From Candidatus Bathyarchaeota archaeon (lineage in GTDB: Archaea > Thermoproteota > Bathyarchaeia > Bathyarchaeales > Bathycorpusculaceae), in assembly GCA_003589585.1 (NCBI GenBank), contig QYYE01000006.1:1-36658 (forward strand): a stretch of 36,658 nt of DNA, written 5' to 3'. The position numbers and the translations under genes were made by a program. A model generated the notes under the pieces. It did no database searches, was not told where the DNA came from, and saw only the letters and a list, made by a program, of their open reading frames with translations. Of this stretch, positions 2,961 to 11,396 are shown in pieces. Numbering within the stretch: position 1 is the stretch's first letter; every line of letters starts with the position of its first letter.

Positions 2961-5462
2961 TTATGGGCGTTTCCTTAGCAGCAGTGCCAGTATAGCGCCC
3001 ACTATAGCAATTGCCAATATTATTGCAATGGTAGAGATTGCAAAGTACATTTCCGTTGGAGGAGCAGTTACTGTTGGTTCTTCAACGCCTTTGGTTGCCG
3101 CGTCGTCTACGATAAAGGCGGTTTGAGAGTGTGAAGCATAGTAAGAGTTTGAGCCAGCAAAGGTTGCAAAGACTGTGTACTTGCCAGAAATGTCGGGTTT
3201 CCATTCAAAACTGTAAACACCGCTAGCATCACTGGTTGCTGTGCCAATGTTTCTGTAGTTACCGTTTGCATCAATCACATCGATTATTACTGAAACGCCT
3301 ACAGCGTCAGTGGGACGTGAGGACTGCGTGTATACGTACTCCATCCAATCGCTTATGCTCTCGTCAGAAACAGCCGGAACACCGTTTGGAAAGCGTGCTC
3401 TTAAAGCGTAATCCTCGGTTCCTGGAGAAACATCGGTAACAGTGCCTTTTATCAACACAGACCTGCCTAACTCAACAGAAACATCAGGCGCTGTCACGGT
3501 AATAGCGCTTGGACCTTTACCTATAGCATGTATGCGGTTATCATAAGCGTTGAACATCGCTATTGTGCTGTCTCCAATAATGGGGTAGCCTCCCCAGTGA
3601 ACACCGCGTATGCTAATGTTCCAAATTTCTCTGCCAGTTTCTAAGTCAAGACAGATGTAGGGTGCACCGCGTGGCATAGGGTCGACCGGAGAGTGTTCAG
3701 CATGGTTTAGGTAGATTTTTCCGCCCGCAATAAAGGAAAGGTACAGCGGCCAATTGTGCCCCCACAATATTTCATTGAACTGGTCTTCAGCATCGTACGT
3801 CCATAAGAGTTGTCCTGTCTGGGCACTATAAGCGTGTACTCTTCCGCCCATTCCGCCTGAAATGACCTTGCCCTCTGTAATCGATGTTACGCCCCGTCTC
3901 CAATTTGCGATTGTAAAGATATCTACAGGCAACTGTGGCTCAGTTGGCCCCCATAGCTGGCTTCCAGTGTCTAAGCTCAAAGCAACAAGTTGTCGTGTGG
4001 ATTGTAAGCCTACAACAAAGATGCTTTCAGTCACGCTAGCACCGATAAAGGCATTGCCCGCTTGGTTTACAGGCGGATTCCATGTTACATTGAACAATAA
4101 TTGTCCTTCTCGTCCAGGCTTTAAATCCAAAGCCCAGAACACCTGTGACCAATCTCCTCGCAGTATGGCTAGATGAGTTGACCAAGCATCATCTGTTCCG
4201 CCCAGCACTCTGTCTTCAAGAACTGAAAGAACACGTCCTGGCAAACCTCGAGGTATGGTTTTGTTCCATTGAATGCCTTTTGCCCCGTCAAGCACAAGCC
4301 CTTTGTCTCCTCGAATCCAGCTTCCCTGATTTGAAGCTGTCCTATCGGCAGTGACAACCAAAGTTGAGTTCCACAAGGTCATCCAGCCGTTTGCCATGTT
4401 AACCGTGTACACCAGGATTTCACCGCTTGGACCGTATATGGGGGTGGATCCTGAAGGCACATTTTTAATTCCAAATACCCATCGTCCAGTAGCTGGATCA
4501 AAGGCGTTCCAAGTGCTGCCGACCGTTGTCCACAAGTAGGCATATGCTCCGTGAACGTTGAATGAGTCCCAATAGAAAACTTGCCCGAACGCTAACCTTG
4601 TATTATTCCAGTTCTTAACCCATAGTTCTTCCCCAGTCTTCAAATTTACAGCGACGACTTCCTGTTCAACTCTTGTTCCTCCGTCGGCTTGGAACCTGTT
4701 ATAATAGAGCACTCCGCCGATGATAACAGAGTTTAAGAAGTACCCCTCGTATGCGTCTCCAAAGTCAAATGCATGAGGACCCAGTGAACCGCCAGCTAGC
4801 CCGCCTATTGTGAGCGGTTTTGCCCACAATATGTGACCAGATTCGGGGGCATCTTCGTTGTTGTCAGCAACCCAATTCCAGTAAGGATAGTTGTCTAGTG
4901 CTGCACCCCACAGCCAGTTTCCTGAAATTGTGTACCATTCTCTGTTCTGGGCATTTATCGGGCGAATCCAGTATTCAGACGGCAGCGGTGTACCTTGATA
5001 ATATGGTATGGGGGTCTCTTGTACTGTTAATGCAAACCTCTCGCTGTCGCTGGCTTCATAATATACGTCTGCTTGAGTCCAGTTGTACCATTGTGCAGGG
5101 AAATGCGTCTGGAAGTAATAGGTGCCAATCATAGTAGGGATGTACAGTGTGCCTGTTGAACCAGTTGCATCGGTTCTGAATGGACCTAATGTTTCCGACG
5201 TATTGTCTGGTTTGGTAACGGTTACTGTTAGACCTTCCCAGCCATCAGTGTGAATACTGAGATAATCTGAGATTCCCACCCAGATTAACACTTCTTGACC
5301 TACGCCTACAGGATTTGGAATAACAGTGCAGAAAGCGTAGGTCATTTTGTTGCGGATGGGTCTTTGCGCGTTAGCGGCAGGTATAGCAGCAAGTGATAGG
5401 GTGAAAGTTGCGATTAAAACCATAGCAATCGTAGAGATAGCCATGAATTTTCTAATTCTCAA
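2961..5462 (-). CDS. Secreted, membrane-anchored PQQ-like beta-propeller protein
   Basis: An 833-residue extracellular protein. The N-terminus has a short basic stretch, a hydrophobic core (about residues 8-30) and AANA, a typical signal peptide. Residues ~35-150 look like an Ig-type domain. Repeated blades follow, with pairs such as LKTGEELWVKNW, LDTGSQLWGP, AQTGQLLWTYD and LETGREIWN, the hallmark of PQQ-type (WD40-like) propellers. Near 655-780 lies another beta-sandwich (VTAPDVSVELG... through SGKYTVFATFAG). The last ~25 residues form one membrane helix followed by RKRP. No catalytic residues can be assigned; a cell-surface binding or scaffold role is inferred. TTG at 5462 keeps the basic n-region; ATG at 5444 is an alternative. 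Monocistronic by its own promoter and terminator. Confidence 0.85.
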   Translation of the reverse strand: MRIRKFMAISTIAMVLIATFTLSLAAIPAANAQRPIRNKMTYAFCTVIPNPVGVGQEVLIWVGISDYLSIHTDGWEGLTVTVTKPDNTSETLGPFRTDATGSTGTLYIPTMIGTYYFQTHFPAQWYNWTQADVYYEASDSERFALTVQETPIPYYQGTPLPSEYWIRPINAQNREWYTISGNWLWGAALDNYPYWNWVADNNEDAPESGHILWAKPLTIGGLAGGSLGPHAFDFGDAYEGYFLNSVIIGGVLYYNRFQADGGTRVEQEVVAVNLKTGEELWVKNWNNTRLAFGQVFYWDSFNVHGAYAYLWTTVGSTWNAFDPATGRWVFGIKNVPSGSTPIYGPSGEILVYTVNMANGWMTLWNSTLVVTADRTASNQGSWIRGDKGLVLDGAKGIQWNKTIPRGLPGRVLSVLEDRVLGGTDDAWSTHLAILRGDWSQVFWALDLKPGREGQLLFNVTWNPPVNQAGNAFIGASVTESIFVVGLQSTRQLVALSLDTGSQLWGPTEPQLPVDIFTIANWRRGVTSITEGKVISGGMGGRVHAYSAQTGQLLWTYDAEDQFNEILWGHNWPLYLSFIAGGKIYLNHAEHSPVDPMPRGAPYICLDLETGREIWNISIRGVHWGGYPIIGDSTIAMFNAYDNRIHAIGKGPSAITVTAPDVSVELGRSVLIKGTVTDVSPGTEDYALRARFPNGVPAVSDESISDWMEYVYTQSSRPTDAVGVSVIIDVIDANGNYRNIGTATSDASGVYSFEWKPDISGKYTVFATFAGSNSYYASHSQTAFIVDDAATKGVEEPTVTAPPTEMYFAISTIAIILAIAIVGAILALLLRKRP

Positions 5463-7529: not shown

Positions 7530-7607
7530 GGGCCGGTCGTCTAGCTTGGTTAGGACATTGGCTTTACGAGCCAAAGGTCGCCGGTTCAAGTCCGGCTCGG
7601 CCCACCA
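7530..7607 (+). tRNA. tRNA-Val (anticodon UAC)
   Basis: A complete cloverleaf can be drawn. The acceptor stem is GGGCCGG paired with TCGGCCC (last pair G-T). The D-arm contains GGTTAGGAC. The anticodon stem TTGGC/GCCAA encloses the loop TTTACGA with TAC in the anticodon position, and the T-arm GCCGG/CCGGC holds the TTCAAGT loop. The discriminator is A, followed by an encoded CCA at 7605-7607. There is no intron. UAC reads GUA/GUG valine codons. Its 3' two thirds are duplicated downstream at 7793. Confidence 0.95.
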
Positions 7608-7661
7608 CACTTTACGTTTTTGGTTTTTCTAAGGTATAGAAGAAGGTAGAGGTCCCCTTGC

Positions 7662-7760
7662 TTATCTTCTTTCCGTGGGCTTTGCTGGGGCGTCTGTTTT
7701 TGTTTCAGGGTTTGGTTTCGGATTGCAGACTGGTTGTGGAGTAAGCCTCAAGTCCTGAAC
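7662..7760 (-). pseudogene. Remnant of a second ATPase unit (5' end only)
   Basis: This 32-codon stop-to-stop frame has no ATG; it ends AKPTERR. Its upstream DNA (GGGTTAAGTTCA) and part of its body (CAGTCT, then CCGAAA and CCAAA) match the 5' end of the ATPase gene at 8880-8946 in the same order. Just after it, the sequence runs into the tRNA-Val 3' end, as the ATPase gene runs into the tRNA copy at 7793. I read it as a deletion derivative of the same unit that lost almost all of the ATPase. Not an expressed gene as far as I can see. Confidence 0.4.
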
Positions 7761-7855
7761 TTAACCCCGTTAAGTTATGATTACCACCCAAAGTTAGGAC
7801 ATTGGCTTTACGAGCCAAAGGTCGCCGGTTCAAGTATGGCTCGGTCAATCACACA
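7755..7855 (+). repeat. Second tRNA-Val 3' copy with upstream flank
   Basis: Bases 7793-7835 are identical over 43 bases to 7549-7591 inside tRNA-Val (from GTTAGGAC through the T-loop). Beyond that the copy decays (ATGGCTCGGTCAATCA in place of the true 3' acceptor), so no tRNA can form. The preceding flank (TGAACTTAACCCC, then ACCACCCAAA) matches the flank of a third copy at 8936. This is the typical footprint of integration at a tRNA gene. Confidence 0.8.
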
Positions 7856-7857
7856 CT

Positions 7858-8942
7858 TTAGTTTATTTTTGCACTTCTCAGCAGCGCTTTGAGCATCAGA
7901 TCGGTCACTTGGTAGACTTTGTCTTTCTCGGTTATGGGCATCGACGCTTTTAGACTTTCAATCGTGTTGCGGATTGATGAATCATTAACGGTGATGCCCC
8001 TAGCTGTCTCAGCTGCGCTCTTGATTTCCCGCCACCTTGCAGAGTTCGCAGCTGATTTTAGCACCGCTATGTAGAGTTTTCTATCTCTTCGTTGAAGGAA
8101 ATGGTCAATTTCATCGTTTACAATTTTTTCAGCCTCAACTACTGCCTCTTGGAGGGCAATATGGTGTGGAAACCGTCTCACAACGACATTGTTTCCATAG
8201 AGTGTGGCCACCCTGGAATGCCGTCAAGTATTGCAGTTGTTTCGCTTATTTTCTGCTTATCGACGGGTTCATTGCAATCTCTCAGGCCCTTGCTTAGGAA
8301 TCCGCTCGCGGTTTCAGGGTCAAATGGTTGAAGTATCATTTTTGCGGGAGATCTTCCGTATAACGGCGAAGTTGATTCTGGTTCAAGAAGGGTCCTGGTT
8401 AACCCAAACATTGAACCAGTGAACACGAATGTTAGGTTCCGATAGGTGTTGAAGATGTTGGCCAGTATCTTGAGAAGCTGCCCTGATACGGCCGAGAGTT
8501 CCTGCACTTCAGCTAGTTCGATGATGCATTCATCGGTTTGTCTACCAATCGCCGCCAGCAAATCTCTAGTCGCAGTCATGGGTTTCTTAACTATGGATAA
8601 AGAGATGCCATTAGGTCCAAAGGTTAAGCCGTTAATGTTTCCTGTGCTGGCTTTTATCTTCTGCATCAGGGTTTTGTGGTTGTTTACGCCTTCTGCTAAT
8701 GCGCTCAATAAGCCATGAGTGCCTTTTATGCTCCAGAGGTTGATGTATATTGTTTTGATTCCCATGCGCTCCAGTTTTGCGTTTGTAGCTTTTATGAGGC
8801 TTGTTTTGCCCACCATTCGGGGTCCAAGCAGAGCCACCCATCTTTTAGCGGTTAAAAGTCTGGTTAATTCCTCGATTTCTTTTTCTCTTCCGAAGAGTTC
8901 TTTGGGGATTCTTTCGGGCTGAGACTGAACAACGAAATGAAC
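7858..8942 (-). pseudogene. Archaeal ATPase (ATPase_2 type), broken
   Basis: The gene reads in the family's order: PKELFGREKEIEEL, a P-loop LLGPRMVGKTS, a Walker-B-like strand ECIIELAEVQEL, a sensor strand LTFVFTGSM, and LDGIPGW. After GIPGW the frame shifts: adding one base next to 8207/8208 continues directly into TLYGNNVV in the next frame, followed by a helical C-terminal region ending SAKIN. The normal Asp of Walker B is replaced (LAEVQ where LDEVQ is expected). No ATG, GTG or TTG lies before the P-loop region; the first is the GTG at 8837, inside the ATPase domain. Lost start, frameshift and altered Walker B argue for a dead gene. It sits between two tRNA-Val fragments, as an accessory passenger. 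Confidence 0.8.
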
Positions 8943-9030
8943 TTAACCCCCTTAAGTAAATATAAGGCTACCGCCCAAATTAGGGCTTTACATGCCAACA
9001 GTCGCTGGTTTAAGCCTTGGTTTCGACACA
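8936..9030 (+). repeat. Third, decayed tRNA-Val fragment with the same flank
   Basis: From about 8979 the sequence ATTAGGGCTTTACATGCCAA, followed by AGTCGCTGGTTTAAG, aligns with the tRNA-Val copy at 7793 with one six-base gap and scattered substitutions. The flank TGAACTTAACCCC...ACCGCCCAAA also matches that of the second copy. Read on the minus strand, it contains CCTTATATTTACTTAAGG (about 8951-8968), a box-A-like site that would have served the ATPase gene. Confidence 0.7.
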
Positions 9031-9100
9031 ACCGGCGGTTCAGCAAATTTGCCGGTTTATCGCACTAACTGATTTAAGTAATTACGCTATAGGTGTACCG

Positions 9101-9517
9101 ATGAAGAAAACAGTGTTTATTGCGGGTCCTATTCTGGGCAGGGAAGAAAACCAAACATACAGAGAAGAAATCACCCGCATCTGTAGCAGGCTGGGCTTTG
9201 AGGTTATTGACCCGTGGAATCGCGAAAAAGTCCTCTACAAAGGCAATGAGCGGTGCTGGTGGAACACCTACGAAACCTTCGACTTTGTCCAAAGAGACCT
9301 TGACGACGCTGAACGCTGCGACGTCATGGTTGTGTATTTTCCCATATTATCGGCGGGGGCTTGCATGGAAATGTTCTACGCCAAGCGGAAAGGCAAAAAA
9401 GTGATTGTGGTGTCGGAGCTGAAGTGTTTGAGCCCTTGGATTGTGGTGCACTCGGATGTTATTGTAAAGGATTTTAGGCAGCTTGAAGCTGCGCTTGAAA
9501 AATATCGGCAACCGTGA
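9101..9517 (+). CDS. Nucleoside 2-deoxyribosyltransferase-like protein
   Basis: A 138-residue protein of the small Rossmann-like family that cleaves or transfers N-glycosidic bonds of (deoxy)nucleosides or nucleotides. The N-terminus VFIAGPILG is the family's first strand and loop, FEVIDPWNRE follows, and SAGACMEMFYA (Glu90) corresponds to the SxGTxxE helix that carries the catalytic Glu; Asp66 and Asp69 precede the strand CDVMVVYFP. Substrate is unclear, as members include nucleotide hydrolases. The start is ATG 9101, five bases after AGGTG; an upstream extension to 9017 would run into the tRNA-fragment repeat and is unlikely. It is the first intact gene beyond the integration scar. Confidence 0.75.
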   Translation: MKKTVFIAGPILGREENQTYREEITRICSRLGFEVIDPWNREKVLYKGNERCWWNTYETFDFVQRDLDDAERCDVMVVYFPILSAGACMEMFYAKRKGKKVIVVSELKCLSPWIVVHSDVIVKDFRQLEAALEKYRQP

Positions 9518-10622: not shown

Positions 10623-11396
10623 TTAATCCTTGTTAACCCTAAAATTCACTACTTTTTTGGGACTAAACACAACAAAACGAGCACTCTTCATATACCTACC
10701 AATCCTTGGAATCAGCCCCGCCGCATCCGTTCCAAGCTTACAGGTCAGCACATGCTCAAACAAACCCAAAGACTCCGTGCCTATGACATCGCGGTTGAGG
10801 CGCGCTCTCTCAAGCACCGATTCAACATCGCTTACTGATGAGTGTAAAATAATCAATCTGTCCAGAAGAGACTCTTCCCAATTGCGAAACCGCTCTACTT
10901 GGTCGGTTGATAGCTCTGCCTGCAAAAAACCAGTCTCTTCCCAGTTCATATCAACCACTTTAACGCTTAAAGGCAAACCCTCAACAAAACTAAAAAGTTC
11001 TGACGTTTGTTTCAAGGAGATTTTTTTTCCATCTACCAGTTGAGCTTGCAAATGAGCTAAAGACACCATTGCCCGAATTATCTTCGGCTCAAAAACTCCG
11101 ATGTCCACTGCTAGAGCTTCTTTGTTTGCCTCAACCTTGGAAATGTAACCCTTAAAAACCGAGTTATTCTCGATGTTGTCTATGGTTGTTGGGCAGGCGC
11201 CTATTTCTTTGTTGATATAGCTTTTGGCTATGCCTTCGTCTTCTCCTGAGAGTGAAACCTGAACCCACCCGCTTGGGGCTGTTCCTAAAATTTTAGTTTC
11301 CACGTCTAACTCTTCAAACTGAGCTTTTAACAAGTCATCTATCTGTCTTAGCTGACCCGAACCAGAAGCCCTAACAAGTAATGTTAAAGTCGTCAT
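10623..11396 (-). CDS. DUF2110 family protein
   Basis: A 257-residue archaeal protein resembling DUF2110, a family of unknown function found near transcription factor E. It starts LTLLVRASGSGQLRQIDDLL; the centre has VFKGYISKVEANKEALAVDIGVFEP, which may be an S1/OB-like strand segment, and the tail LLDRLIILHSSVSDVESVLERA looks helical. Its ATG overlaps the stop of the HD gene by four bases (ATGA), so the three genes TFE-HD-DUF2110 are translationally coupled. The shared operon suggests a link to transcription or RNA processing, which is inference. Confidence 0.75.
   Translation of the reverse strand: MTTLTLLVRASGSGQLRQIDDLLKAQFEELDVETKILGTAPSGWVQVSLSGEDEGIAKSYINKEIGACPTTIDNIENNSVFKGYISKVEANKEALAVDIGVFEPKIIRAMVSLAHLQAQLVDGKKISLKQTSELFSFVEGLPLSVKVVDMNWEETGFLQAELSTDQVERFRNWEESLLDRLIILHSSVSDVESVLERARLNRDVIGTESLGLFEHVLTCKLGTDAAGLIPRIGRYMKSARFVVFSPKKVVNFRVNKD

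Follow-up and report, generated by a model that had tools for sequence, protein, structure and literature searches.

Anatomy of the tRNA-Val locus

The window analysed here is the 36,658-nucleotide stretch of contig QYYE01000006.1 from a Candidatus Bathyarchaeota archaeon of bog origin (genome G000). Within it, an intact tRNA-Val gene is followed by two partial copies of its 3' part, which lie in direct orientation and bound the inserted DNA. The features are listed below, with comparisons to two congeneric genomes, G003 (Candidatus Bathyarchaeota archaeon bog_991) and G014, where these bear on an assignment.

7530-7607, plus strand: intact tRNA-Val(TAC) (ARAGORN; Rfam RF00005, 63 bits), attL-like, the integration target
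7606-7614, plus strand: CACACTTTA, putative left end of an outer unit, recurring just after copy 2 (family D14, 81% over 16 bp; short and weak)
7624-7741, plus strand: copy of an interspersed repeat (X), 73.6% identical to a G014 copy (E 3e-10), occupying the place expected for the ATPase of the outer unit
7759-7775: palindrome ACTTAACCCCGTTAAGT, putative operator relic of the outer unit (repeat comparison, genome count)
7776-7792, minus strand: gap TATGATTACCACCCAAA, putative promoter-side relic of the outer unit (sequence)
7793-7854, plus strand: tRNA-Val 3' copy 2, running from tRNA position 20 to the 3' end, its first 43 bp identical; attR for the outer unit
7867-8940, minus strand: ATPase_2/AAA+ gene with a C-terminal winged helix and one frameshift near 8208; the G003 orthologue is intact
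8941-8957: palindrome ACTTAACCCCCTTAAGT, predicted ATPase operator adjoining the start codon (genome-wide count; 45-locus comparison)
8958-8979, minus strand: predicted ATPase promoter region with TATA-like CTTATATTT, abutting the tRNA copy (sequence; counterpart in G003)
about 8980-9027, plus strand: tRNA-Val 3' copy 3, decayed, attR of the inner, older unit
9101-9517, plus strand: nucleoside 2-deoxyribosyltransferase-like gene (PF15891/PF05014), the first host-type gene past the scar

The original prediction of a tRNA-Val gene, a 43-base identical 3' copy at 7793 and a decayed third copy near 8979 agrees with these coordinates. Copy 2 matches 7549-7610 at 92% over 62 bp, the first 43 bp being identical. 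A whole-genome search with a 126-bp query (7735-7860) recovered the tRNA (E = 1.4e-19) as well as 8938-9014, which spans the flank and part of copy 3 (E = 2.8e-6), values that exclude chance matches for both. Copy 3 also has a counterpart in G003 (76.8%, E 5e-4). The tRNA-Val was the only RNA family returned by an Rfam scan of the window. The nucleoside 2-deoxyribosyltransferase-like gene adjoins a tRNA-Val fragment in genome G005 also.

No integrase, transposase or Cas1 was detected among the window ORFs scanned with Pfam, in keeping with the earlier statement that no integrase is present. All minus frames of 7530-7900 and 8931-9130 were read and gave tRNA-encoded residues only, and on this ground integrase remnants were rejected for 7608-7792 and for the stretches behind copies 2 and 3. 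A split-integrase layout, with intN lying over the tRNA and intC beside the distal copy, is absent from the window. An insertion sequence or casposon was rejected, the scanned window ORFs holding no transposase or Cas1 and the bounds being direct tRNA copies.

The ATPase gene

Exactly one broken ATPase gene lies between copies 2 and 3, as had been anticipated. It is split into two open stretches, one at 8208-8921 (query aa 7-245) and the other at 7867-8208 (aa 246-359), and the single frameshift between them could be an assembly error, the genome being a draft. Over aa 7-245 the product is 80% identical to the G003 orthologue, in which a few bases are masked. The orthologue falls in PF01637 (ATPase_2; 71.8 bits against a Pfam cut-off of 33.2) with a Walker A motif GPRMVGKTS and a Walker B motif LDE, and the family carries a C-terminal winged helix (PF21100, PF13601). 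The family profile matches the structures 2fna (SSO1545; E 9e-71) and 2qen (E 1e-65) along its entire length. The whole-length match, both Walker motifs and the winged helix are all shared with known ATPase_2 proteins. Proteins of this type are frequent in archaea and structures have been solved; we know of no agreed function for them.

The ATPase is weakly similar to the PADLOC candidate defence family PDC-S27. Searches for it gave no match in phages, one partial match (26%) in IMG/VR and one match (24%) in plasmids. The ATPase domain of mycobacterial IniR, a regulator of transcription, has been modelled on SSO1545 (PMC5760070), and such an ATPase domain can therefore sit in a regulator. We regard the ATPase as a probable self-regulated cargo with a role in defence or regulation, with low confidence as to which.

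Palindromes at the ATPase start codon

The flank shared by copies 2 and 3, TGAACTTAACCCC[G/C]TTAAGT, occurs at 7756-7775 and 8938-8957 (95% alike) and contains a 17-bp palindrome. The palindrome ACTTAASNNNSTTAAGT is found at these two sites only in the 2.08-Mb genome (reversed control, 0) and in four of 32 congeneric genomes, twice each in G000, G003 and G016 and once in G014, where the reversed-pattern control gives 0 or 1 per genome over the 32 genomes of the genus. It adjoins tRNA-Val in G000, G003 and G016, and tRNA-Pro in G014. We compared 45 ATPase loci drawn from Bathyarchaeia, Nitrososphaeria, Thermoplasmata, Thermoprotei and others, and a palindrome with a perfect arm of at least 6 adjoins the ATPase start in 62% of them versus 12% of 289 control ORF starts (Fisher p = 1e-12). 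As a rule two palindromes stand in tandem and end at the start codon; their sequence depends on the clade (e.g. ACTTACGGGGCGTAAGT, AGTATCAGGTGATACT, TAGTTACCTAGGTAACTA), and some loci have extra copies 3' of the gene.

The shared flank had been proposed as the signal of an element end. The match between the two sites stands; the reading as an end was rejected, since the flank corresponds to the predicted promoter and operator of the ATPase and recurs at the start codons of its relatives. Given the C-terminal winged helix of the ATPase, the palindrome is most simply read as an operator to which the ATPase itself binds. In G011 (L245, after position 2697) a lone palindrome ACTTACAGGCTGTAAGT lies behind the same gene that precedes the ATPase and palindromes of G016, and is perhaps a scar of ATPase loss.

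A dispersed repeat in the proposed outer unit

The segment 7624-7741 was considered as the body of an outer element and rejected, as it is an unrelated dispersed repeat, matched 11 times in this genome and 25 times or more in each of G014, G009 and G019. The repeat, about 115-125 bp long, is also found in G025 and G013, usually begins with a T-run, and often lies directly 3' of tRNA genes (Val, Ile, Thr) or shortly past ORF ends.

Genome G014 holds a remnant in which the dispersed repeat is followed by some ten codons of the ATPase N-terminus, a pair of palindromes and a piece of tRNA-Val, which documents an ATPase unit that lost its gene beside this repeat. The remnant now stands beside tRNA-Pro, having been moved there by an inversion relative to the window (G014:C52:90247-157153; L272-L275), the ends of which are inverted repeat copies by tRNA-Val and tRNA-Pro. 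The inversion is supported by a gene order opposite to that of the window: proS, AOR, aminotransferase, ilvE, thrS and pfkB, then hflX, trm56, TFE, HD and DUF2110, are reversed. Other species were searched for a tRNA-Pro adjoining proS as further support and none was found. The original order in G014 was tRNA-Val, repeat, about ten ATPase codons, two palindromes and tRNA-Val fragment.

The same tRNA-Val site in sister species

The arrangement recurs at the same tRNA in G003 (PLSP01000108.1; L045), where tRNA-Val (3967-4043) is followed by 5.4 kb of DNA, a fresh tRNA copy (9451-9503), an intact ATPase, two palindromes and a decayed copy (10687-10741). The ATPase unit is 73% identical in DNA to that of the window from copy 2 through the operator, and in G003 some 20 bp separate the tRNA end from the 3' end of the ATPase. 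This common four-part order bears out the suggested integration at tRNA-Val by a small ATPase unit bounded with 3' copies.

The 5.4-kb insert of G003 sits in the slot before the ATPase. Its intN overlaps the tRNA and ends in AEPDLNRRPLARKA, which is encoded by the tRNA antisense strand, and its intC abuts the copy and matches PF16795 weakly, just below the cut-off; judged by sequence, the insert is an SSV1-type split-integrase element. This element (L045:3967-9503) also encodes a CAP12/PCTIR-type TIR protein, which resembles PDC-S35, and a C2H2-like zinc-finger protein. A second intN/intC pair stands at tRNA-Val in G020, with intC above the Pfam cut-off, while G015 has intC alone, G028 has a decayed intC, and intN remnants adjoin tRNA-Val in several species. 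In G023 (L051) a 796-bp VapBC unit (PF02697 and PF01850) without an integrase lies between tRNA-Val and a 3' copy. At the empty sites L022, L025 and L036 conserved host genes follow within about 0.1-0.6 kb of tRNA-Val, and no copy was found there. Two MAG contigs, G005:C159 and G008:C101, break off only a few bases from the 3' end of tRNA-Val, which is what variation at this site among members of the population would produce.

Because split-integrase elements, intN and intC pieces and a VapBC unit share the site in sister species, the tRNA-Val is a genuine integration hotspot of the genus, with the ATPase unit among its several tenants. This supports the earlier suggestion that the unit may be moved by another element. 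Homology to the tRNA starts at position 16-20 in the ATPase units versus position 30-33 in the split-integrase elements. Being longer in the ATPase units, it suggests that the mobilisers may be other than the split integrases observed here.

Two observations had been named as refuting the original prediction, and each is true in part. Sister species exist with integrase or VapBC cargo, and without the ATPase, between tRNA-Val and its copy; and most relatives of the ATPase have no tRNA fragment nearby. Taken together, the tRNA fragments mark a docking site of general use and the range of the ATPase unit extends beyond tRNA sites, so that tRNA targeting is not intrinsic to the ATPase.

Mobility of the ATPase family

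The ATPase is the sole gene common to loci of 13-19 kb, each with 12-22 ORFs, in G010, G015, G028 and G003, at 68-88% amino-acid identity. The DNA homology at these four loci spans the upstream palindromes and ends about 30 bp past the gene. In G034 and G119, which belong to different genera, the N-terminal part of the ATPase (aa 1-243) is identical, with a sharp left boundary.

The ATPase units of G034, G083, G084 and G115 share a right end, AGAAAAAGAGGGGATTTGCGGGAGA and variants. The same type of right end adjoins tyrosine-integrase genes (L127, L134; PF00589, PF02899) and is present in gene-less elements of about 90 bp that have both ends; the motif was located at L108, L121, L125, L127, L129, L131 and L134 (G115, G084). 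At exactly the same distance past five of 23 right ends lies a tRNA T-arm hairpin, versus 0.15% of random control positions, and one of the five belongs to an ATPase unit, in G115. In other archaea ATPase units stand beside tRNA-Gly fragments (L082/L138, L143). A further unit, L141 (G115:C3), lies near a 24-bp 5' fragment of tRNA-Glu with the whole tRNA-Glu further upstream, and may be an integration at the tRNA 5' part. The right ends common to tyrosine-integrase elements, the T-arm hairpins and the tRNA-Gly fragments support a transfer of ATPase units in trans by tRNA-targeting integrases. For the window's genus this support is indirect: the right-end motif of the related genera had no match there (G000, G003, G016), and no integrase with ends matching the ATPase unit was found in that genus.

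Discussion

We propose, with moderate confidence, that the locus is a pile-up of integrations at the tRNA-Val 3' end in which one-gene, satellite-like ATPase units were inserted in trans as self-controlled cargo. The inner unit (7855-8979, about 1.1 kb) would comprise the ATPase gene, its promoter and its palindromic operator, with tRNA-Val sequence on the left and copy 3 on the right. The outer unit (7608-7792) would be of like kind, whether a later arrival or a duplication, and would have retained its operator and copy 2 only, the ATPase having been lost and the dispersed repeat now standing in its place. As both units lack a recombinase gene, insertion in trans is the most likely route for each, through the tyrosine integrase of a co-resident tRNA-targeting element, which would act on the tRNA-derived sequence within the unit. 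The one-gene size could be the result of deletion inside larger elements. The ATPase is predicted to bind its own palindromes and so control its own promoter, and may serve as a self-contained cargo in defence or regulation. Of this account, the anatomy, its recurrence at the same tRNA, the movement of the family as single genes and the integrase elements at the site in sister species are observed, and mobilisation in trans, autoregulation and function are inferred.

The repeated arrivals of the original prediction are borne out as far as the presence of more than one unit goes, and the unit was probably inserted at least twice at tRNA-Val. However, the second unit could instead have arisen by a tandem duplication of a single integration, through unequal crossover between tRNA-Val and copy 3, followed by loss of the outer ATPase. 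This is possible, though in our view less likely than not: the outer and inner units agree at the right end and resemble each other at the short left end, and a second copy made in this way needs no recombinase, but the gaps beside the two palindromes clearly differ, and the contrast of a near-perfect copy 2 with a heavily decayed copy 3 fits two ages at least as well. A duplication would bear on the second arrival only and is compatible with our main reading of the inner unit.

We also considered whether the locus could be what is left of larger elements, that is, one or two SSV1-type or plasmid-like insertions at tRNA-Val deleted down to an ATPase and tRNA copies. The split-integrase elements at the same tRNA in G003 and G020, the lone intC of G015, the decayed intC of G028, and the intN remnants by tRNA-Val in several species would all suit this account. 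We nevertheless consider it unlikely, as the same minimal unit is conserved between G000 and G003, where the ATPase is intact and the tRNA end lies some 20 bp off, relatives of the ATPase at other places travel as lone genes whose ends are defined, and the length of tRNA homology is unlike that of the split-integrase elements. Least plausible of all, and in our view highly improbable, is a chance association of an ordinary chromosomal ATPase gene with a rearrangement-prone tRNA locus. That most ATPase relatives are not beside tRNA fragments, and that dispersed repeats drive inversions at the locus, would be expected on such an account; the same order of four parts in two species, the palindromes beside tRNAs in all four palindrome-bearing genomes of the 32, the single-gene mobility of the ATPase, and the additional ATPase units that adjoin tRNA-Gly fragments elsewhere among archaea and a T-arm in G115 argue against it.

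Our preferred reading, a pile-up of trans-inserted units, places the locus next to several known systems. Tandem integration, split integrases and tRNA-targeted integration in general are already established (PMC8371274, PMC6563490). As in the SSV1-type (suicidal, split-integrase) elements of archaea, which occupy this tRNA itself in sister species, integration targets the tRNA 3' part and leaves an intact tRNA and a 3' copy. Attachment sites of that type usually measure 40-50 bp (PMC8371274), and the G003 element fits with 47 nt of tRNA. The ATPase units, in contrast, are without an integrase, about 1.1 kb in size with one gene, and have tRNA homology from position 16-20, nearer the D-loop. 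With trans-mobilised satellites and MITE-like elements they share the absence of a recombinase and, in related genera, ends in common with integrase elements and gene-less derivatives of about 90 bp; they differ in carrying an ATPase gene with its own putative operator, in ending at tRNA 3' parts in some cases, and in that their mobilisation in trans is putative. The 796-bp VapBC unit of G023 is likewise integrase-less and a single small operon between tRNA-Val and a 3' copy, but it has other cargo and its tRNA copy begins at position 32. We found no paper on the start-codon tandem palindrome or on single-gene mobility of ATPase_2 genes within a partial coverage of the literature, so both points are new provisionally.

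A broader interpretation, which we offer tentatively and hold to be less probable than the account of this locus, is that the PF01637 winged-helix ATPases are one-gene selfish elements with their own tandem palindromic control site, which is perhaps an origin or maintenance site as well, and that they spread on borrowed tRNA-targeting integrases. If this were true, lone chromosomal ATPases annotated across archaea would be minimal satellites. The account of the locus given above would show that archaeal tRNA-targeting integrases move very small passive units, which island-finding methods based on integrases would miss. Occurring in lineages from Bathyarchaeia to Thermoplasmata, the conserved start-codon palindrome pair offers a directly testable DNA target for ATPase_2, and the single-gene mobility of the family suggests that these ATPases are cargo or parasites, not housekeeping genes.
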